DNA of 64,000 nucleotides from Alphaproteobacteria bacterium (GTDB lineage: Bacteria > Pseudomonadota > Alphaproteobacteria > Caulobacterales > Maricaulaceae). Each line of letters starts with the position of its first letter. Position 1 is the stretch's first letter. The notes beneath the pieces were generated by a model that was not told the DNA's origin, made no database searches, and saw nothing but the letters and a program-made list of their open reading frames with translations. Made by a program: the position numbers and the translations under genes. This document shows, in pieces, positions 2,673 through 58,310 of this stretch. The DNA lies in assembly GCA_016124205.1 (NCBI GenBank), contig WGOD01000003.1, positions 248,001-312,000 on the forward strand, in the 5' to 3' direction.

Positions 2673-2739
2673 CATCTCCCTCATCCTGAGGTGCGACCCC
2701 GGACCTGTTCCGGGGGAGCCTCGAAGGGCGAGGGAGATG
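2673..2739. repeat. Palindromic repeat family A, AT(C/T)TCCC-type unit (A1)
   Basis: CATCTCCCTCATCCTGAGGTGC...GCCTCGAAGGGCGAGGGAGATG. Confidence 0.85.
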
Positions 2740-2778: not shown

Positions 2779-2862
2779 GCCCCTCGTCCTTCGAGGCCGC
2801 CCGCCCTTCGAGACGCGGCTACGCCGCTCCTCAGGACAGGGCGGCACCTCAGGATGAGGGGC
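2779..2862. repeat. Palindromic repeat family A, GCCCC-type unit with enlarged loop (A2), inverted relative to A1
   Basis: GCCCCTCGTCCTTCGAGG...CACCTCAGGATGAGGGGC. Confidence 0.85.
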
Positions 2863-9699: not shown

Positions 9700-10502
9700 G
9701 CGAGGAATTCCAGGAAGACCTGCATTTCGAAGCCGCCGAGGACGCGGAAGCCGATGCCCTGATCGTCGATGTCGACGGGTTCGAGGGGCCGCTTCACCTG
9801 CTTCTGCATCTGGCGCGCAAGAAGAAGGTCGACCTCGCGAAGATCTCGATCCTCGAACTGGCCGAGCAGTATCTGGGCTTTGTCGCCGAGGCGCGGAAGA
9901 AGCGCTTCGACCTCGCCGCCGAATATCTCGTCATGGCGAGCTGGCTCGCCTATCTGAAATCGCGGCTGCTGCTGCCCAAGCCCGCGAAGAATGAGGACGA
10001 GCCGGAACCGGAAGCCATGGCCGCGGCGCTCGCCTTCCGCCTGCGGCGGCTTGAAGCGATGCGGCTGGCTTCGCAGGCGCTGTTCAAGCGCGATCTTCTG
10101 AAGCGCGACGTGTTCGACCGCGGCGCGCCGGAAGGCGTGCGCACGCTGCGCGCGCACAAATACCAGGCGAGCCTGCACGACCTTCTGAAGGCCTACGCCA
10201 CACGGCGGCAGGCGCGCTACCGTGCGAACTACAAGCCGAACCTTCCGAAGGTGTACGGCCTCGACAGCGCCCGCACGCGCATGGAACGCATCGTGCCGGA
10301 GCTGAAGGAGTGGCGCGAACTGGAGGACATTCTTCCGGATATGGGCGAGCTGGGCTTCGACCCGCCGCCGCGCCGTTCGGTCCTCGCCAGTTCGACGCTC
10401 GCCGTTCTGGAAGTGACCAAGGACGGCATGGCCGATCTGCGGCAGGACGGACCCTTCACGCCGATCAAGGTGCGCGGCCGGACGGAGGACAAGCCGTCGT
10501 GA
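9696..10502 (+). CDS. scpA: Segregation and condensation protein A (GTG start)
   Basis: LIVDVDGFEGPLHLLLHLARKKKVDLAKISILELAEQYL; overlaps nagZ stop. Confidence 0.93.
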   Translation: MSEEFQEDLHFEAAEDAEADALIVDVDGFEGPLHLLLHLARKKKVDLAKISILELAEQYLGFVAEARKKRFDLAAEYLVMASWLAYLKSRLLLPKPAKNEDEPEPEAMAAALAFRLRRLEAMRLASQALFKRDLLKRDVFDRGAPEGVRTLRAHKYQASLHDLLKAYATRRQARYRANYKPNLPKVYGLDSARTRMERIVPELKEWRELEDILPDMGELGFDPPPRRSVLASSTLAVLEVTKDGMADLRQDGPFTPIKVRGRTEDKPS

Positions 10503-11278
10503 CGCAGGAGAATGATCCGATCGGCGAAGCCATCGCGCGGCTTCGCGAACGCGCCGAACGACAGGGCGCTGCCGAGACCGGTTCGGACGAAGCCGGACCG
10601 CGCCTGGCCGTCGATGCGGAACGCCACCGCCTGCGTCAGCTGGAGGCGCTGCTGTTCGCCGCCGCCGAACCGCTCGACATCGAGACGCTGCAGGCCCGTC
10701 TGCCGGCGGAGGCCGAGGTGGAAAAGCTGCTCGCCGCGCTGCAGGCGGACTATGCCGAGCGCGGCGTGCGCCTCGTCGAGGTCGGCGGACGCTGGCGGTT
10801 CGAGACCGCGCCGGATCTCGCCGGCCTCCTCGAAGAGGTGAAGGAAGAGCCGCGCCGCCTGTCGGATGCCGGTCTCGAGACGCTCGCCATCATCGCCTAT
10901 CATCAGCCGGTCACCCGCGCCGAGATCGAGGAGATTCGCGGCGTCGCGGTGTCGAAGGGCACGATCGATCTGCTGTTCGAGATCGGCTGGATCCGCCTGC
11001 GCGGCCGCCGCCGCTCCCCGGGCCGGCCCGTGACCTATGGCACGACCGACGCCTTCCTCGACTATTTCGGCCTTTCCGCCATCGGCGATCTGCCAGGCGT
11101 GGCGGACCTGAAGGCCGCGGGCCTGCTCGATTCCCGCCTGCCGCCCGGCTTCGAAGTCCCCGATCCGGGTCTTGGCCTGCGCGGGGAGGGCGAGGACGAG
11201 GAACTCGACCTCGACGGCGAGGACAGCCCCGACTTCCATGTCGACTTCATGGAAGACGAGGAAGAGAAGGACGATTGA
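10499..11278 (+). CDS. scpB: Segregation and condensation protein B (GTG start)
   Basis: RLRQLEALLFAAAEPLD...LETLAIIAYHQPVTRAEIEEIRGVAVSKGTIDLLFEIGWIRLRGRRRSPGRPVTYGTTDAFLDYFGL. Confidence 0.95.
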   Translation: MTQENDPIGEAIARLRERAERQGAAETGSDEAGPRLAVDAERHRLRQLEALLFAAAEPLDIETLQARLPAEAEVEKLLAALQADYAERGVRLVEVGGRWRFETAPDLAGLLEEVKEEPRRLSDAGLETLAIIAYHQPVTRAEIEEIRGVAVSKGTIDLLFEIGWIRLRGRRRSPGRPVTYGTTDAFLDYFGLSAIGDLPGVADLKAAGLLDSRLPPGFEVPDPGLGLRGEGEDEELDLDGEDSPDFHVDFMEDEEEKDD

Positions 11279-11290
11279 TCATTTAGTGTC

Positions 11291-11340
11291 GCCCCTCATC
11301 CTGAGGTGCCGCCGTCAGGCGGCCTCGAAGGGCGAGGGGC
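11291..11340. repeat. Palindromic repeat family A, GCCCC-type unit (A3)
   Basis: GCCCCTCATCCTGAGGTGCCGCCGTCAGGCGGCCTCGAAGGGCGAGGGGC; contains the GIY-YIG stop codon. Confidence 0.9.
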
Positions 11341-11631
11341 GCCCGCACGGCGCTTCGACGCCAATTTCAGTTCAGACCAATTTTCGCTCGCCAGCGCCAT
11401 TTTCTTGCGGCGCGACCATCCCTTGATCCGCTTTTCCGCGGATATCGCGTCGATCATCAGGTCGAATTCCTGACACCACATCATAGTCACCGGCAGTCGC
11501 CCGGACGTGTAATCGCTGCCTTCACCTTGGTTGTGCTGGGCAACGCGCGCAGTCACGTCTGAACCGCGATGCGTACCGACATAGAACGAGCCGTCGGCAC
11601 ACTCGAGAAGATAGCACCAGTGTCCGCCCAT
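11296..11631 (-). CDS. GIY-YIG nuclease family protein (repeat-embedded)
   Basis: MGGHWCYLLECADGSFYVGTHRGSDVTARVAQHNQGEGSDYTSGRLPVTMMWCQEFDLMIDAISAEKRIKGWSRRKKMAL; both CDS ends lie in flanking repeats. Confidence 0.85.
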   Translation of the reverse strand: MGGHWCYLLECADGSFYVGTHRGSDVTARVAQHNQGEGSDYTSGRLPVTMMWCQEFDLMIDAISAEKRIKGWSRRKKMALASENWSELKLASKRRAGAPRPSRPPDGGTSG

Positions 11632-11682
11632 CTCCCTCGTCCTTCGAGGCTCGCTGCGCGAGCACCTCAGGATGAGGGAGAT
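11630..11682. repeat. Palindromic repeat family A, AT(C/T)TCCC-type unit (A4), inverted relative to A3
   Basis: ATCTCCCTCGTCCTTCGAGGCTCGCTGCGCGAGCACCTCAGGATGAGGGAGAT. Confidence 0.9.
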
Positions 11683-11784
11683 TTGGGGTTGCAACAATAT
11701 CGACCATCCAACTGCCCCAAGCCGTTGGACGGGGCAGGGCGCATGGTTTAAGCCTTTGCTCAACGGAATTTCACGGAGGTGAGC

Positions 11785-12033
11785 ATGGCTCCCGGCATGT
11801 GGCAGATCATTCTCGTCGTGCTCCTGGCGCTCGTCCTGTTCGGCGGCCGGGGCAAGATTTCCTCGCTGATGGGCGATGTCGCCAAAGGCATCACCAGCTT
11901 CCGCAAGGGTCTGAAGGACGAGGACAAGGCCGAGGACGAAACCGGTGAAGACCGGCCGCAATCGGTCGAGCAGAACCCGAACCGCACCGCCGAACCGACG
12001 GTACAAGAGGAAAAGTCGTCCACGCGCGGCTAG
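11785..12033 (+). CDS. tatA: Sec-independent protein translocase TatA
   Basis: [45 protein letters not shown]. Confidence 0.93.
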
Positions 12034-13357: not shown

Positions 13358-13422
13358 ATTTCCCTCGCCCTTCGAGGCTTCCCCGAACTGCGTTCGGGTT
13401 CGCACCTCAGGATGAGGGAAAT
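13358..13422. repeat. Palindromic repeat family A, AT(C/T)TCCC-type unit (A6), inverted relative to A5
   Basis: ATTTCCCTCGCCCTTCGAGG...GCACCTCAGGATGAGGGAAAT. Confidence 0.9.
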
Positions 13423-49450: not shown

Positions 49451-52400
49451 ATGTCCAACACATCCGCGTTCGACCGGTCTGGTTCGTTCGTTTTTCGCGG
49501 GGCGCTAGCCGGTTCGCGAAACTTGCTGGCCAGCGTCAGCTTGTTGGCACTTGGTCTCGCCGCGGTTCCGGCTGCCATGGGCGATGAGGCGACAGTCACG
49601 CCTCAGGATCACGGTCTGAACGCTGCGGCCGGGCGCGATCCGTCTGGCGAATTCAGGCTGCGTCCGGTTCTGCCGATCTACGGCTGGATCTTCGAGCGCG
49701 ACGAGGACAGCGAAGCCCTGATCGTCCGCCTGCCGGTATTTGCGGCGGCTGGTGGTGATGTGTCTCGCCCGCAAGCCGGAACCGTTGGCTGTGCAGAGGG
49801 AGCGGGCTCGAGTTCCACCGAGTGTGGCGCGGGTTCCAATACGGGTACGGCGAGCTTTGCAACTGCAGTGGGTTCCAATTCGAACGCCACGGCTGACCGC
49901 ACCGCGGCCTTCGGGCGGCTGGCGGACGCGACAGGTACCGATTCAACCGCGCTGGGTCACAATGCAGATGCAACGGCCGCCAATGCGACGGCGGTCGGAC
50001 AGCAATCGATTGCCAGCGGCATCGACGCTTCGGCCTTCGGCCAAAACTCCTCGGCCTCCGGCGAAGATTCAATTGCCATTGGTCGATACAGCAACGCGAG
50101 TGCTCTTGGATCGATCGCACTAGGCAGCGATGGTGCCGACGTTGGTGTGGTGGGCGCCCAGGCATCGGGCCTCTACTCTGTGGCCGTCGGATCGGACGCA
50201 ATAGCGTCGGGTGACGGCGGGGTCGCGCTGGGATCCGGAGCCACGGCGGAGGCGGACGCGGTTTCCATCGGCCAGGGAACGGTCGCAGCAGCAGGTGGCA
50301 CGGCCGTCGGGGACGCGGCGAACGCGACCGATCAAGCAATCGCCCTGGGCGAGGGTGCGGACGCCTTGACCAGCCGCGCCATCTCCATCGGTATCGGTGC
50401 TACATCATCCGGAGCGAGCAGCGTGGCCCTGGGGTCCGATAGCGATGCAACCGCTGCGGGTGCGATCGCCATTGGCGGCGACCGCTTTGATGGTGATGCG
50501 CTGGGCGCTCAAGCGACGGCCACCGACGCCATCGCGCTCGGCGCGGATGCAACCGCATCCGGGATCGGGGCCATCGCGCTTGGGCTGAACGCCGACGCCA
50601 CCGGCGCGGATTCCCTAGCCTTCGGTTATGGCTCACGGGCCGTTTCAGACAATGCGATCGCCATCGGCGAGAACACATTGGCCAGCAACGGCCTCAGTAT
50701 CGCGATCGGTGTGAACGCCGCCGCGAGCGGTGCCCACTCAATCGCCATCACGCCGGCAGGGACGGCAACCGGAGCCCGGGCAGTAGGGCTTGGATACAGC
50801 GCCAACGCCGACGCGAACGACGCGATTGCGATCGGTAACAACGCACAGGGGACGGCGACCAACGCAATCGCGATCGGCTACAATGCCGACGGTGTCGGGA
50901 TATCTTCAGTTGCCATGGGCAATGAGGCGATGGCGACCGCAACCGACGCCGTGGCTATCGGTTCGGGGGCTGATGGTGGTGGTATTGCTTCCGTCGCGAT
51001 CGGCGACGGCGCGGATGCAGGGGCGTCGAACACCGTTGCGCTCGGCACCGGTGCCTCAGCTGGCGGGATCGACGCGCTGGCCTTTGGCCGGTCGGCAAAT
51101 GCTTCGGTGACCAACACCATCGCCCTCGGCGCACTCTCTGATGCCACCGGAGTTGGCGGCATCGCGATCGGCGGGGACGGGGCGGACGGCGATACACAGG
51201 GCGCGCTCGCCAGCGGTGTGAATTCCGTTGCGATCGGAATGGATGCGGCGGCGTCGGCCGCGAATGCGCTGGCGTTTGGTGCCGACTCGATCGGATCGGG
51301 AACGCGATCCGTCGCCGTGGGGAATCTGGCCAATGCCTCCGGCACTGATGCGTTTGCCATGGGTCCGAACGCGACCGCGTCCGGCGACTATTCCGCGGCG
51401 ATCGGATCGTATGCGATCGCGTCAGGCTATCTCTCTTCAGCGACCGGGCACCGGGCCCAGGCAGTGGGTGTCGGCAGCGTGGCGCAGGGTTATTTCGCCT
51501 ATTCCAGCGGCGAATACTCGATGGCCAACGGGACTTTGACCTACGCCACCGGCAACCGCTCGGTCGCGATTGGCGGCTGGTATGACAATGATGGCGGCGG
51601 CGACACCGATTCCGATGAGTTGACCATTGCCAGCGGTGACCGCTCGCTGGCGCTAGGTGCGATGGCGCAGGCCAATTCCGAAGCGTCTCTCGCGCTCGGC
51701 TTCGGGACGCGAGCCTCGGCGGTCAACGCGATCGCGCTCGGACGGCAGGCGCAGGCGCTGCATACCAATTCGGTCGCGATCGGACCGGGCGCGATTACCA
51801 CGGCCACCGAACAGATCATGTTCGGCAACGCCTTCTTCAACTACGCAATGCCTGGCGTGGTCTCGCCGTCCAACCAGGTCGGCAGTGCCGACTACTTCAT
51901 CGTCGCGGACTCCGCGGGCAATCTGAAGTCCTATGCCTTTTCGAATGTGATGGCCTCGGACCGCCCGGACACAGCGACTTCGGTTCGGGATGCGCAGGTC
52001 GCGGCGCTGCAGGCGCAGGTCGAGCAGATGCGGGCCGAGATGGCCGCGATCCGGGCGCAGATATTCGGTGAACCGCAGATGGAGGCCGGCAGTGTCGATG
52101 TCGTAGACAATGGCGGTGACGGCCGTCCGGGTGCCGGGGATGGCACCAATCCCGGCGCCGAAACGGGCGGCGGCGGCGGCTTCCAGAATGTCGGAGGCGG
52201 CGGCGGTTACCGCACCTCCGGCACGTCGGACACCTATCTCGCGGCGATCACTGCCAATACCGGGGCGATCACGGCGATCCAGGACGACGTCAATGCCTTG
52301 AGAACGGACCTGTCCGATCTGCAGACGACGGTCTGGAGCCAGGCCGACCAGATCGAGGTCAATCGCGATGGTGTCGCGATCGCGCTGGCGATGTCGGGCA

Positions 52401-52588
52401 TGTCCGGTCTGGAAAGTGGCGAGAATTTCTCGCTGTCGGCCAATTGGGGCTTCTACGACGATGCCCACGCCATGGCCTTCTCCGGCGCGGCCCGGATCAA
52501 CGAGCAGTTCACGCTCAATGCCGGTCTCGGCTGGGGCGCGGAAACCGGCGAAGTCGGTGCGCGCGCCGGCGTACGCTGGGGCTGGTAG
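49451..52588 (+). CDS. Trimeric autotransporter adhesin 1 (YadA-like head repeats, YadA anchor)
   Basis: Dozens of AxAIGxxAxAxG beta-roll repeats; short coiled coil; C-terminal 4-strand anchor ending GEVGARAGVRWGW. Confidence 0.9.
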   Translation: MSNTSAFDRSGSFVFRGALAGSRNLLASVSLLALGLAAVPAAMGDEATVTPQDHGLNAAAGRDPSGEFRLRPVLPIYGWIFERDEDSEALIVRLPVFAAAGGDVSRPQAGTVGCAEGAGSSSTECGAGSNTGTASFATAVGSNSNATADRTAAFGRLADATGTDSTALGHNADATAANATAVGQQSIASGIDASAFGQNSSASGEDSIAIGRYSNASALGSIALGSDGADVGVVGAQASGLYSVAVGSDAIASGDGGVALGSGATAEADAVSIGQGTVAAAGGTAVGDAANATDQAIALGEGADALTSRAISIGIGATSSGASSVALGSDSDATAAGAIAIGGDRFDGDALGAQATATDAIALGADATASGIGAIALGLNADATGADSLAFGYGSRAVSDNAIAIGENTLASNGLSIAIGVNAAASGAHSIAITPAGTATGARAVGLGYSANADANDAIAIGNNAQGTATNAIAIGYNADGVGISSVAMGNEAMATATDAVAIGSGADGGGIASVAIGDGADAGASNTVALGTGASAGGIDALAFGRSANASVTNTIALGALSDATGVGGIAIGGDGADGDTQGALASGVNSVAIGMDAAASAANALAFGADSIGSGTRSVAVGNLANASGTDAFAMGPNATASGDYSAAIGSYAIASGYLSSATGHRAQAVGVGSVAQGYFAYSSGEYSMANGTLTYATGNRSVAIGGWYDNDGGGDTDSDELTIASGDRSLALGAMAQANSEASLALGFGTRASAVNAIALGRQAQALHTNSVAIGPGAITTATEQIMFGNAFFNYAMPGVVSPSNQVGSADYFIVADSAGNLKSYAFSNVMASDRPDTATSVRDAQVAALQAQVEQMRAEMAAIRAQIFGEPQMEAGSVDVVDNGGDGRPGAGDGTNPGAETGGGGGFQNVGGGGGYRTSGTSDTYLAAITANTGAITAIQDDVNALRTDLSDLQTTVWSQADQIEVNRDGVAIALAMSGMSGLESGENFSLSANWGFYDDAHAMAFSGAARINEQFTLNAGLGWGAETGEVGARAGVRWGW

Positions 52589-52633
52589 TACTCACCGAGT
52601 CGATCTGATCAATTTTCAATCAATGTGTCATTG

Positions 52634-52665
52634 AGGGGGTTGCGAAAAAATATTCGTGACCCCCT
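52634..52665. promoter_or_regulatory. Stem-loop between the two autotransporter genes
   Basis: AGGGGGTTGCGAA aaaata TTCGTGACCCCCT. Confidence 0.6.
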
Positions 52666-52807
52666 TGAAATGTATTTGACGAATGTTTGTATGCATCCGC
52701 TTTCGCGAATCTGGAGGGATTGAGCGAAAGTAACTTGGGGTCGCCCCGCGCCGCCCCGCTTTCTTTTCCTTCCTATTGGCGCGGGATGCGCTGTAGGGAG
52801 GCTCATT

Positions 52808-55492
52808 TTGACATTCAGAACATTGACTTCGACTCTCGCGCTGGCTCTGGCAGCCGGCCTGACCGGGCCCGCCATCGCCGATACCGGCGAGGATGGCACA
52901 GTTGCGGAAAGCTATCTTTTCCGTGTCTCCGATGAAGGTCGAGACGCCAGGAATGCGGGCTATTTCGTGCGCCTGCTCCAGGACATGGATCGCGCACTGC
53001 CGAGAGTTTCGTTCGCATCACCCGGAGGTATTTCCGAGCCCGCAGATTCAACGGCATCCTGCAATGCAGGTTCTGGCAACAATACAACGGAATGCGGCGT
53101 CAACAGCGATACCGGCTTGGCCGATTTCGCGACCGCCGTCGGCAATGGCGCTGACGCGACGGCCGATCGCGCTTCGGCCTTCGGCCGGCTGTCGTCTGCC
53201 ACCGGGGCCGACTCCACAGCGATCGGGCACAATGCCTTGGCCAGTTCCGATAACACGACGGCCGTCGGACAGTTCAGCACCGCCTCCGGAAGCGATGCCA
53301 CAGCACTCGGCCAGAATGCTTCGGCAACTGGCGACGATGCGACTGCGCTCGGTCAGGACTCAAATGCCGACTTCAATCGCGCGACAGCCTTGGGTCAAAG
53401 CGCCGTCGCCGGCGATCTGGCGGCAACTGCGATTGGTCAGAACGCGAACGCGGCCGATTCCAACACGATCGCCATCGGGGTCGATACGACCGCATCGACC
53501 AGCGGTGCCATCGCGATCGGCGGCGACGGCACTGATCCGGACGGCCTTGGCGCGCAGGCCACCGCTGTGTCATCTATCGCGCTTGGCGAAGACGCGAATG
53601 GAAGCGGCGCTGCCGGGATTGCCATCGGCCGTCAGTCGGAGGTTACCGGCTCCGCCTCCATCGCGATGGGCGACGGGGCCAGCGCCACGACATCGAATAC
53701 GATCGCCATGGGTGCGGCTGCGCAGGCCACGGGCATCCAGGGCATCGCGATCGGCGAGGAATCCGAGGCCTCCGGTCCGCAAGCCGTTGCGCTCGGGGTC
53801 TTCTCAAGCGCCAATGATGACGACGCTACGGCGATCGGTGCCTTTGCCGACGCGCACGGCGTCGGTGCGACATCGCTCGGCTATGGCGCCCAGGCCCGCG
53901 GCGACGGTACGGTCGCTCTTGGCTACAACTCGGCGACCAATGCGGATGGAGCCATTCTGATCGGCGCGAATGCCGACGTGGCCAACTCCGCGACCGATGC
54001 AATCGCAATCGGCCGGCAGTCGGATTCGAACGGTGTCGGCGCGATCGCGATCGGCGGCAATGGCGGCGACAGCGGCACGGACGGTGCCCAGGCGCTCGCG
54101 AACAATGCCATCGCCCTGGGTACGGACTCGCTTGCCGATGCGGCGAATTCGATCGCCTTCGGCCGCGGATCGAGCGCGACGGCTACAGGTGCTACGGCGA
54201 TTGGCGGTGGCACGACCGCTTCCGGTACCAGCGCATTCGCAATGGGGCAGGACGCGACCGCGTCGGGTGACTACAGCCTTGCGACCGGCGCTTTTGCCAA
54301 CGCGTCGGGATATCTCGCAACGGCGACTGGCTATCAGTCGAGCTCGTCGGGCTTCGCCAGCGTGGCGCAGGGCTATTTCTCGCAAGCGAGCGGAACCTAC
54401 AGCCTGGCGAATGGCGCACTGACCTATGCGACCGGCAACCGGTCGGTCGCGATCGGCGGCTGGTACGACCTCGACGGTGAGGGCGACACGGACGGTGATG
54501 AACTGACGATCGCCAGCGGCGATCGCGCCACCGCGATCGGTGCGACCGCCCAGGCCGACGCAGAGGCCGCGCTCGCGCTCGGCCACGCCACCCGCGCCAC
54601 GGCCACGAACGCCATCGCGCTCGGCCGGCAGGCTCAGGCCAATCACCTCAATTCGGTGGCGATCGGCGCCGGGGCCATGACGACGCTGGAGACGCAGATC
54701 ATGCTCGGTAACTCGGCCTATTCCTACGCCATGCCTGGCGTGGTCTCGCCGGGCAACCAGGTCGGCAGCGCCGACTATGTCCTCGTCTCTGACACGGCCG
54801 GGAATCTGAAATCGATGGCGATGTCCAGCTTCAGTACTGACGATCCCGAGATGGCGGCAAACCGGAGCGTGGAGAACGCCCAGGTCGCCGCGCTGCGGGC
54901 TCAAGTCGAGGCGATGCGCGCCGAGATGCAGGCCATCCGCGCCGAACTCGGCGGTGCCACGGCGGCTGGCGGCGAAGTCGATGTCGCTGACCGCGGCGGG
55001 TCGGGACTGCCAGACGGCCGGGACGGGACCGGCGACGGCACCGCTCCTTCCACCGGCGGCGGCGGCGAGGTCGCTAACCGCGGCGGCGGAGGCGGTTTCC
55101 GCTATACGGGTGATCCCTATGAAGGAGCGGTCAGCGCGAACGCCGACGCGATCATGGCGAATGCCGACGGCATTCTCGCCCTTGAGGATGACGTCGCGAC
55201 ACTGAGAACGGATCTGAGCGATCTGCAGACCGACGTGTGGCGGCAGGGCGACCAGGTCGAGATCAACCGCGACGGTGTTGCCCTGGCACTGGCCATGGCC
55301 GGAACCGCAGGACTACAGAGCGGTGAGAACTTCGCTCTCTCCGCGAATTACGGCTTCTATGATGATGCCAATGCGTTGGCCTTTGCCGGTGCTGCCCGGC
55401 TGACCCAGCGAGTTTCGCTGAACGCCGGCTTCGGTTTCGGTGCCGATACCGGCGAGGTCGGCGCGCGCGCCGGCGTACGCTGGGGCTGGTAG
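52808..55492 (+). CDS. Trimeric autotransporter adhesin 2 (TTG start; paralogue of adhesin 1)
   Basis: Signal peptide, YadA head repeats, anchor ending GEVGARAGVRWGW; SD AGGGAGG 6 nt before TTG. Confidence 0.9.
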   Translation: MTFRTLTSTLALALAAGLTGPAIADTGEDGTVAESYLFRVSDEGRDARNAGYFVRLLQDMDRALPRVSFASPGGISEPADSTASCNAGSGNNTTECGVNSDTGLADFATAVGNGADATADRASAFGRLSSATGADSTAIGHNALASSDNTTAVGQFSTASGSDATALGQNASATGDDATALGQDSNADFNRATALGQSAVAGDLAATAIGQNANAADSNTIAIGVDTTASTSGAIAIGGDGTDPDGLGAQATAVSSIALGEDANGSGAAGIAIGRQSEVTGSASIAMGDGASATTSNTIAMGAAAQATGIQGIAIGEESEASGPQAVALGVFSSANDDDATAIGAFADAHGVGATSLGYGAQARGDGTVALGYNSATNADGAILIGANADVANSATDAIAIGRQSDSNGVGAIAIGGNGGDSGTDGAQALANNAIALGTDSLADAANSIAFGRGSSATATGATAIGGGTTASGTSAFAMGQDATASGDYSLATGAFANASGYLATATGYQSSSSGFASVAQGYFSQASGTYSLANGALTYATGNRSVAIGGWYDLDGEGDTDGDELTIASGDRATAIGATAQADAEAALALGHATRATATNAIALGRQAQANHLNSVAIGAGAMTTLETQIMLGNSAYSYAMPGVVSPGNQVGSADYVLVSDTAGNLKSMAMSSFSTDDPEMAANRSVENAQVAALRAQVEAMRAEMQAIRAELGGATAAGGEVDVADRGGSGLPDGRDGTGDGTAPSTGGGGEVANRGGGGGFRYTGDPYEGAVSANADAIMANADGILALEDDVATLRTDLSDLQTDVWRQGDQVEINRDGVALALAMAGTAGLQSGENFALSANYGFYDDANALAFAGAARLTQRVSLNAGFGFGADTGEVGARAGVRWGW

Positions 55493-55495
55493 AGT

Positions 55496-56671
55496 CTAGC
55501 CTTCGGGCAGGTTCTCGATGAAGAAGCGGACGGCGTTCTCGCCCATCACGGCGCGAATGTCGTCCGCGCTCATCCCGGTGCCGATCAGGGCGTCGGTGAG
55601 GGCGGCCAGTTCCGATGCGTCGAAGCGCGTCGTGACGGTGCCGTCGAAGTCGGACCCCAGGGCGACGGCCTCGACCCCGAGCGTCTCGGCCGCATAGGCG
55701 ATGGCACGGGCGACCCCCGCCGGCGTATCGTAGCAGATCACATCGGCCCAGTAGCCGATGCCGATCAGGCCACCGCGGTCGGCGATCTGCTGCAGCAACT
55801 CATCGGAGATGTTGCGGGGGGATTCGCACAAGCTCCTGATTCCCGTGTGGGAAACGATCAGCGGGGCGTCCGTCAGTTCAAGGACATCGCGAACGACGGC
55901 TTCGGACGAATGCGCCACGTCGATGATCATTCCCCGCTCGACCATCGCGGTCACCGCCTCGCGCCCGAACTCGGTCAGGCCCGCCCCGGACGTGCCGTGA
56001 AGCGACCCACCCAGCTCATTGTCGAAGAAGTGCTGCAGGCCGATGACCCGGTAGCCTTCGTCATACAGGCGCTGGATATTCGCGAGGTCGCCTTCGAGCG
56101 GATGCGCACCCTCGGTAGCCAGGATGCCGACCATGATGCCGCTGTCCGTCTCGCGCGCCTCGAGCGCGGCACTGACGTCACCGGACGTCCGGGCCACGAT
56201 GAAGCGGCCATCGGAAGCGTCGGCCAGCCGGTTCAGACGCCGGGCATGAAAGCGGGCGCGATTATAGAGTGACCCCCAGGTGTCGACAGGCCAGCGCTGG
56301 GCGATGGCGAGCAGGGTGATGTCGTCTGAATCCGCGCTGTTTTCATTGTAGTTCAGATTGGAGGGTGTCTTGGTGACGGACGCGAAAACCTGAAGGAAAA
56401 CACCGCCTTCGCGAAGGCGCGGAATGTCGGTGTGGCCCCGGTCATGCCGCCTTGCCGGGTCGCGCGCCCACAACAGCGTGTCCGCGTGAAGATCTGCGAC
56501 CGGTATCCCGGCGTGGAGCGCCCTGGCTTCATCGGAGATGGCATAGACCGGATGATCGATCACCACATTCATCTGATCGTCGACGCGGGCCGGCAGGTAA
56601 AAGAAGAAAACAGCGGCACCAAGCAGGATCGCAATGCCCGCCAGGATCAGTCCAATGCGCATCAGTTTCAT
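55496..56671 (-). CDS. Membrane dipeptidase (peptidase M19, renal dipeptidase-like)
   Basis: IPVADLHADTLLWARDP...GILATEGAHPLEGDLANIQRLYDEGYRVIGLQHFFDNELGGS...IIDVAHSS...IVSHTGIRSLC...ALGSDFDGTV. Confidence 0.9.
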   Translation of the reverse strand: MKLMRIGLILAGIAILLGAAVFFFYLPARVDDQMNVVIDHPVYAISDEARALHAGIPVADLHADTLLWARDPARRHDRGHTDIPRLREGGVFLQVFASVTKTPSNLNYNENSADSDDITLLAIAQRWPVDTWGSLYNRARFHARRLNRLADASDGRFIVARTSGDVSAALEARETDSGIMVGILATEGAHPLEGDLANIQRLYDEGYRVIGLQHFFDNELGGSLHGTSGAGLTEFGREAVTAMVERGMIIDVAHSSEAVVRDVLELTDAPLIVSHTGIRSLCESPRNISDELLQQIADRGGLIGIGYWADVICYDTPAGVARAIAYAAETLGVEAVALGSDFDGTVTTRFDASELAALTDALIGTGMSADDIRAVMGENAVRFFIENLPEG

Positions 56672-57206: not shown

Positions 57207-58310
57207 ATGATGAAGAAACGGTTTCTGACAGCGGCTGCCATCGGTCTTGCGCTGTCGGTTCCGGCCTGGACGTCGGCGGGTGCCGACGAAGGCTGGTACG
57301 TCAGCGCTTCCGTCGGTTACGGCGGCCCTGGCGATTCGGACGTCGATCTGCAAGCCAGCGGCGCCCGCGAAATCAATGGTGAATCCGATTGGCGCCAGGC
57401 TCTGGCGTTCGGTTACGACTACGCCAATGGCTGGCGTCTCGAAGCCGAAGCGGCTCACCGCTACAACGACACCGGCGCGATTGGTTCGTTCGAAGATTCT
57501 TCGAGCGATTTCCACGTCTGGTCGGCGATGCTGAACCTGTACCGCGACTTCAATCCGGACGGCTGGTACCACCCGTACCTCGGCGCCGGTGCCGGTTTCG
57601 GTCAGGTCAACGGTTCGATGACGGGCTGGACCACTGGTTCGCGTCCGGTTCCGAACGGTGGTGTTGCTGACTCGCGCTACGTCGTGTCTCGCGATGACGA
57701 TATCGGCTTCATGTGGCAGCTGATCGCTGGCGTGGGCTGGGGTCTGGGCGACAACTGGTATTTCGATACCCAGTATCGCTACTTCTCGACCCTGGACCTC
57801 GACTTCGACCCGGGTGTCGACGTCGACGCGCTGCGTGGCCACGAAGTGTGGATGGGTCTGCGGTACGTGTTTGCGGCTCCGCCGCCCCCGCCGCCGCCCC
57901 CGCCGCCGCCTCCGCCCCCGCCGCCTCCGCCGCCGCCTCCGCCGCCTCCGCCTCCGCCGCCGCCTCCGTGTGACGACGTTGGCTTCGTGGTCTACTTCGA
58001 GTGGGATCGTTCGAACCTCACCGATCAGGCCCGTGCGGTTATCAACCAGGCTGTCCAGCAGGCTTCGACCTGCGGCGTTGCCGCGGTGCAGATCGACGGT
58101 CACGCTGACCGTTCGGGTGCTGCCGCCTACAACGTCGGCCTCTCCGAGCGCCGCGCCCGCGCGGTTCGCGACGAGATGGTTCGCCTGGGCGTGCCGGCTT
58201 CCGGCATCTCCCTGCAGGCCTTCGGCGAAAGCCGCCCGGCCGTGCAGACGCCGGACGGCGTGCGTGAGCCGCTCAACCGCCGCGCTGAGGTCCTCATCGA
58301 CCTGCGCTAA
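57207..58310 (+). CDS. OmpA-like outer-membrane protein with 30-proline linker
   Basis: Signal peptide; OmpA-type beta-barrel; (Pro)30; VYFEWDRSNLTDQARAVINQ...IDGHADRSGAAAYNVGLSERRARAVRDEMVRLGV. Confidence 0.93.
   Translation: MMKKRFLTAAAIGLALSVPAWTSAGADEGWYVSASVGYGGPGDSDVDLQASGAREINGESDWRQALAFGYDYANGWRLEAEAAHRYNDTGAIGSFEDSSSDFHVWSAMLNLYRDFNPDGWYHPYLGAGAGFGQVNGSMTGWTTGSRPVPNGGVADSRYVVSRDDDIGFMWQLIAGVGWGLGDNWYFDTQYRYFSTLDLDFDPGVDVDALRGHEVWMGLRYVFAAPPPPPPPPPPPPPPPPPPPPPPPPPPPPPPCDDVGFVVYFEWDRSNLTDQARAVINQAVQQASTCGVAAVQIDGHADRSGAAAYNVGLSERRARAVRDEMVRLGVPASGISLQAFGESRPAVQTPDGVREPLNRRAEVLIDLR

Follow-up and report, generated by a model that had tools for sequence, protein, structure and literature searches.

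A GIY-YIG nuclease gene bounded by inverted CGTC-superfamily REP hairpins: a candidate mobile element of Alphaproteobacteria

Introduction

What is a small nuclease gene doing between two inverted palindromic repeats, with its start and stop codons at or inside the repeats themselves? This question is raised by a GIY-YIG gene in a 64,000-nucleotide stretch of a Maricaulaceae genome (contig WGOD01000003.1; hereafter the window). The original prediction, made from the letters of the window, proposed by analogy with REP/RAYT systems that the GIY-YIG protein could mobilise or process the repeat family. The repeats resemble the CGTC-tagged REPs defined by Di Nocera et al. 2013 (PMC3733652), which carry an unpaired CGTC, TGTC or CCTC tag, a stem starting with AT and a short unpaired tail, mostly CCA. 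These REPs are found mainly in Alphaproteobacteria as inverted dimers, have Neisseria dRS3 and Rickettsia RPE repeats among their namesakes, and "apparently lack a dedicated transposase", with no associated enzyme reported (PMC3733652). Thermotogae, Spirochaetes, Chlorobi and Bacteroidetes are also reported to have CGTC REPs.

The GIY-YIG gene and its flanking hairpins

The element lies in the intergenic gap between two host genes, and the region has the following features:

10499..11278, (+): scpB, host gene to the left of the insertion
11291..11341, (+): A3, CCTC-tagged REP hairpin with its forward unit on the + strand; downstream end of the element, holding the stop codon
11296..11631, (-): GIY-YIG nuclease gene of clade I, 111 aa, read 11631->11296
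11630..11682, (-): A4, inverted REP hairpin with its forward unit on the - strand; it forms the element's upstream end and overlaps the ATG at its edge
11779..12033, (+): tatA, host gene to the right of the insertion

The 111-aa ORF matches Pfam PF01541 (GIY-YIG) over residues 4-77 (E 6.9e-14), and NCBIfam holds no model for it. A comparison of 18 clade I proteins showed that Y7, Y17, R29, H33 and E66 are invariant; the tyrosines of the GIY and YIG motifs and the Arg and Glu that serve as active-site residues in the GIY-YIG superfamily are present in this clade. The nearest solved structures are UPF0213 GIY-YIG proteins (PDB 1zg2, 1ywl; sequence profile E 3e-20), and, judged from this profile, the fold of the window protein is already set by its solved relatives.

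A3 and A4 are inverted copies of each other, as shown by one pair of 17-nt arms with 100% identity (11293-11309/11662-11678) and a second 17-nt pair with 94% identity (11322-11338/11634-11650). Each folds better than 200 of 200 shuffled sequences (z -3.6 and -5.5, respectively), and the position of the gene between inverted hairpin repeats, as first described, is confirmed. The tag bases of both hairpins can pair too, so that the description of the tag as unpaired applies less strictly to clade I. Coordinates and translation likewise place the stop codon and the C-terminal tail of the protein (...RPSRPPDGGTSG) inside A3, and the ATG (11631-11629), which had been put at the edge of A4, overlaps its first two bases. 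The gene had further been described as fused into the repeats. The overlap is real; the REP-encoded C-terminus is not conserved among homologues. A functional REP-encoded C-terminus was rejected on this ground, and the fusion is regarded as incidental.

Elsewhere in the window, a long coding stretch at 49899-55667 is internally repetitive, with recurring xAIALG-type motifs, and resembles the head of a YadA-type trimeric autotransporter; a CCGCCT-rich run at 57874-57974 would encode a polyproline stretch.

Nature and gene-less copies of the repeats

The flanking repeats of two GIY-YIG clades, designated clade I (that of the window protein) and clade II, agree with the published CGTC REPs in several respects. 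A C[GC]TC or TGTC tag is followed by an A-T stem start (clade I, C[CG]TCATCC...GGATGA; clade II, CGTCATTCCCGC..GCGGGAATCCA), and inverted pairs make up 25 of the 32 repeat clusters in the window's genome. The tails are less uniform, with CCA or CCAG at many clade II loci and variable sequences in clade I. Clade I itself was found almost only in Alphaproteobacteria in a GTDB scan. Clade I repeats differ from the published type in their longer stems, a 2-nt bulge and variable tails. Moreover, two GIY-YIG clades are linked to the repeats here, whereas the published description has no enzyme (PMC3733652). Stem complementarity was observed in 167 of 175 distinct units (67% expected), including 28 of the 33 units departing from CC, with the double changes CC/GG, GC/GC and GG/CC. 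Since the stem is kept via compensatory changes, the hairpin itself is probably under selection.

Copies of the repeat without a gene are also present in the window:

2674..2738, (+): REP of the A3/A4 family with a long apical stem, forming a +/- pair with 2779-2862
2779..2862, (-): REP of the A3/A4 family, with what seems to be another REP-like unit (CCTTCGAGACG...CTCCTCAGGA) in its loop
13302..13352, (+): left half of an inverted REP dimer that lacks a gene and is arranged outward like the GIY-YIG element
13358..13422, (-): right half of this gene-less dimer

The second of these features is an apparent case of nesting, with a REP of a different subtype lying within the loop of another. In the whole genome (a 2.2 Mb draft), 57 half-sites were detected in 32 clusters, whereas the reversed pattern, used as a control, gave none. 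The outward +/- arrangement is seen in five clusters, of which one is the GIY-YIG block (368 bp) and the other four are gene-less (86, 97, 98 and 165 bp).

Association of the repeats with small GIY-YIG genes

The generality of the flanking repeats was examined by comparing, for each small GIY-YIG gene, the 400 bp on its upstream side with the 400 bp on its downstream side and scoring their similarity (pass, score of at least 46), many of the genomes searched being drafts. In the window's own and related genomes, 38 of 49 such genes were repeat-flanked on both sides, compared with 8 of 1500 control positions in the same genomes. A named set of 80 loci from the GTDB scan (Caulobacter, Bradyrhizobium, Methylobacterium, Rhizobium, Sphingomonas, Microvirga and others) gave 63/79 GIY-YIG loci versus 0/290 control intervals at the same loci, and a Pseudomonadota-wide sample of clade II gave 21/28 versus 0/55 controls. 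The orientation of the flanks varied among the named loci, with inverted or direct REPs and one to several of them per side. The best negative control is provided by canonical UPF0213 (YhbQ-like) GIY-YIG genes from the same bacterial family, none of which was repeat-flanked (0/18; top score 29); a sequence profile (A1) gives clade I proteins at least 123 bits and UPF0213 proteins at most 83 bits. The gene-repeat association is thus beyond chance, and the flanking repeats called for by the original prediction are general in two GIY-YIG clades.

Two simpler accounts were rejected in this comparison: chance association, by the same-genome and same-locus controls, and the idea that any GIY-YIG gene attracts repeats, by the UPF0213 set. 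A related view holds that a small gene came to lie between common intergenic REPs by chance or was shuttled by ordinary REP-REP recombination. These genomes are indeed rich in REPs, and DNA lying between dispersed repeats can be moved when they undergo homologous recombination; but with control rates of only 0-0.5% and no flanked gene among the UPF0213 paralogues, this view appears very improbable.

A clade I gene was also noticed in another phylum, near a contig end of a Fimbriimonadaceae MAG (Armatimonadota; L213), where clear flanking repeats were not seen; its presence there would reflect transfer or a binning error.

Cognate pairing of protein clade and repeat type

Each clade is accompanied by its own type of repeat. 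Clade I pairs with CCTCATCCTGAGG...CCTCGAAGGATGAGG repeats and clade II with TGTCATCCCGG/CGTCATTCCCGC...GCGGGAATCCA repeats. The motif TCATNCTGAG occurs on at least one side of 18/20 clade I loci and of 1/30 clade II loci (Fisher 2e-10), and at 0.27% of background positions. Clade I repeats include two subtypes (GTGC..GCCTCGAA and GAGC..GTCTCGAA) whose distribution agrees with the protein tree, with 6 changes versus 23.8 in shuffled data (0/500 as low). Near-copies inflate this clustering, so that within-genome cases weigh more: Bradyrhizobium sp. 132 has one gene of each clade I subtype with the matching repeat at each, and the second small GIY-YIG gene in the window's genome (L002; G000:C7:579199-582420) is flanked by another repeat family. 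The pairing between gene and repeat is therefore clade-specific even inside one genome, which also counts against the chance placement of a gene between REPs, and the repeat ends that flank a GIY-YIG protein are, as predicted, its own in the sense of being cognate to its clade.

Several loci show further repeat types. At L002, the GIY-YIG gene is enclosed by a different palindromic repeat (GAAATCCCCGCGAAAGCGGGGACCTCG...), present on either side in direct orientation. At L049 (genome G023), the gene for a GIY-YIG protein that falls between clades I and II has a third repeat flavour (CGTCATCCTGAGCCGC...GCGAAGGATC) on both sides, and a clade II gene (L259, genome G280) lies between inverted copies of GTCATTGCGAGGAGCGAAGCGACGAAGCAATCCAG, which presumably resembles a repeat seen across many phyla.

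Mobility of the repeat-gene-repeat block

Evidence for movement comes from both multiple copies and empty sites. A genus-mate (G002) contains three copies of the repeat-gene-repeat block at unrelated loci, with 93-97% identity over 475-534 bp and a shared stretch extending 20-40 bp past the outer palindrome on one side. Two genomes from another family of the class (G319 and G206) provided three and one aligned copies, respectively, whose homology starts at CTTCGTCATT and ends at AATGACGAAG, i.e., at the CGTC tags; the DNA outside is mostly unrelated, with some further flank common to L260 and L261. A common block at the DNA level was not found among the paralogues in G276, G143, G146 and G147, so that recent block dispersal is seen in three genomes only.

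The insertion site of the window is empty in all six genus-mates with both flanks readable (scpB-tatA gap of 74-137 bp versus 501 bp), and one site of G319 is found among relatives in three states: occupied by the full element, occupied by REP dimers with no gene, or empty and free of REPs. A target-site duplication was not seen at the insertions. The block hence moves as a unit and is multicopy, and the occupied and empty sites that a mobilised element was expected to show between strains were both found.

Such copies bear on the suggestion that the protein is a host-serving hairpin nuclease, which would trim or repair REP cruciforms, the adjacent REPs regulating the gene and selection rather than mobility keeping the linkage. 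Strongly folding REPs that overlap the start and stop codons and the conserved catalytic residues would suit this role, which is nevertheless improbable given several similar block copies at unrelated loci, the lack of the block at orthologous sites in relatives and the patchy presence of the gene within genera.

The main rival explanation starts from the GIY-YIG domain itself, which is a classic homing-nuclease domain. A homing-like parasite, namely a free-standing GIY-YIG homing endonuclease with the REP as its target, would cut existing dimers and be copied in by gene conversion, while REPs spread otherwise. It would predict cognate specificity too, and gene-less dimers of the same +/- arrangement do exist, including those found with the gene-bearing element in the same intergenic region of different strains. 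A target consisting of the REP only is at odds with close relatives of two insertions that are empty without any REP (G001 for the window insertion; L281 and L285, with 92-93% flank identity).

Repeat abundance and the absence of a Y1 transposase

Copies of CTCATCCTGAGG were counted in 137 genomes of the family. At least 3 copies were present in 26 of 27 clade I carriers versus 21 of 110 non-carriers (medians of 15 and 0, the flanking copies themselves adding a few), and abundance remained related to gene presence when permuted within genus (p=1e-5), the clade I gene being patchy within genera. Repeat number thus tracks gene presence, and the pattern named as contrary to the original prediction (GIY-YIG genes lacking the repeats, with repeat abundance unrelated to the gene) was not found for clades I and II. 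The 21 genomes with repeats and without the gene mean that a GIY-YIG mover requires gene loss or draft gaps. Many CTCATCCTGAGG repeats were seen in five genomes in which the clade I gene was not found (G043, G044, G139, G022 and G140), for which recent gene loss or another enzyme is possible.

The Y1 transposase (PF01797) is absent from 22 of 27 clade I carriers, and was not found in the window's genome (a draft, 70% complete). RAYT therefore cannot be the general agent in these genomes, and was rejected as the mobilising agent. Homing alone does not predict that repeat number depends on gene presence, and it needs another enzyme for CGTC REPs, none being known (PMC3733652) and RAYT missing from most carriers. 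Homing into REP dimers already in place, although the leading alternative, is considered unlikely, since the REP-less empty sites and the abundance data speak against it as a complete explanation.

Proposed mechanism

The preferred reading, to which a probability of roughly 0.6 is assigned, is an autonomous element in which a GIY-YIG gene is bounded by inverted CGTC-superfamily REPs and its nuclease nicks the cognate hairpin, driving the mobility of its own gene and, in trans, that of gene-less repeats. Most likely, the nuclease would recognize its cognate REP hairpin in an extruded or single-stranded form (e.g., on the lagging strand) and would nick it near the CGTC-AT tag. Because the protein has a single nuclease domain without obvious strand-transfer chemistry, host repair must finish the move: host replication and recombination would process the break, and the tag-to-tag block would reach a new intergenic position by being copied or moved there. 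A gene-less REP dimer may be acted on in trans and likewise copied or moved. It could also be that the flanking REPs are landing sites rather than element ends. The original view of the GIY-YIG protein as a RAYT-like enzyme mobilising the repeat family is thus supported by flanks, empty sites, block copies, abundance and pairing, and its catalytic part, cutting of the repeat by this enzyme, is proposed by inference. With CGTC REPs and two GIY-YIG clades included and UPF0213 left out, the scope reached here is wider than that of the original prediction.

On a wider scale, the GIY-YIG proteins of clades I and II are probably dedicated CGTC REP mobilisers, forming a second, non-HUH class of REP-mobilising system that would extend across Proteobacteria, perhaps into other phyla, and in which each protein lineage and its hairpin would have evolved together. 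They offer a first good candidate for the mobilising enzyme that CGTC REPs have lacked, and a clade-matched nuclease makes the spread of these repeats, which are widespread in Alphaproteobacteria, directly testable at the bench. If true, the reading would imply a new design of minimal mobile element, in which a single-domain hydrolytic nuclease replaces the transposase. Many small genes so far assigned to the GIY-YIG superfamily and nothing more would then gain a possible function.

Comparison with known systems

A literature search, which misses most subscription journals and preprints (prior work may exist), found no link between GIY-YIG proteins and REPs; a Moraxella paper mentioning both has them as separate, unlinked entries in a pangenome table.

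The closest parallel is the GTAG REP/RAYT (TnpA-REP) system, including REPtrons and REPINs. In both cases, short tagged hairpins lie mostly between genes, frequently as inverted dimers; the enzyme gene has its own repeats on either side and is far outnumbered by gene-less repeats; and each enzyme is paired with a cognate repeat. The RAYT system differs in that the enzyme is an HUH Y1 transposase instead of a GIY-YIG nuclease and the tag is GTAG instead of CGTC, CCTC or TGTC (with AT following), and here the copies move as a block of gene plus ends. The Seg-type free-standing GIY-YIG homing endonucleases of phage T4 are small mobile genes that are their own main cargo, whereas the present gene lies in an intergenic region, and its hairpin ends are multicopy and occur on their own as well. 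The UPF0213/YhbQ proteins (PDB 1zg2, 1ywl) share the single-domain GIY-YIG fold by sequence profile, but have no flanking repeats, and clade I is set apart from them by its profile score. Since the defining HUH Y1 enzyme and GTAG tag of REP/RAYT are lacking and the genomic context is not that of UPF0213, this enzyme-repeat pairing is of a new kind: CGTC REPs and the GIY-YIG fold were both already known, and what is new is their pairing.
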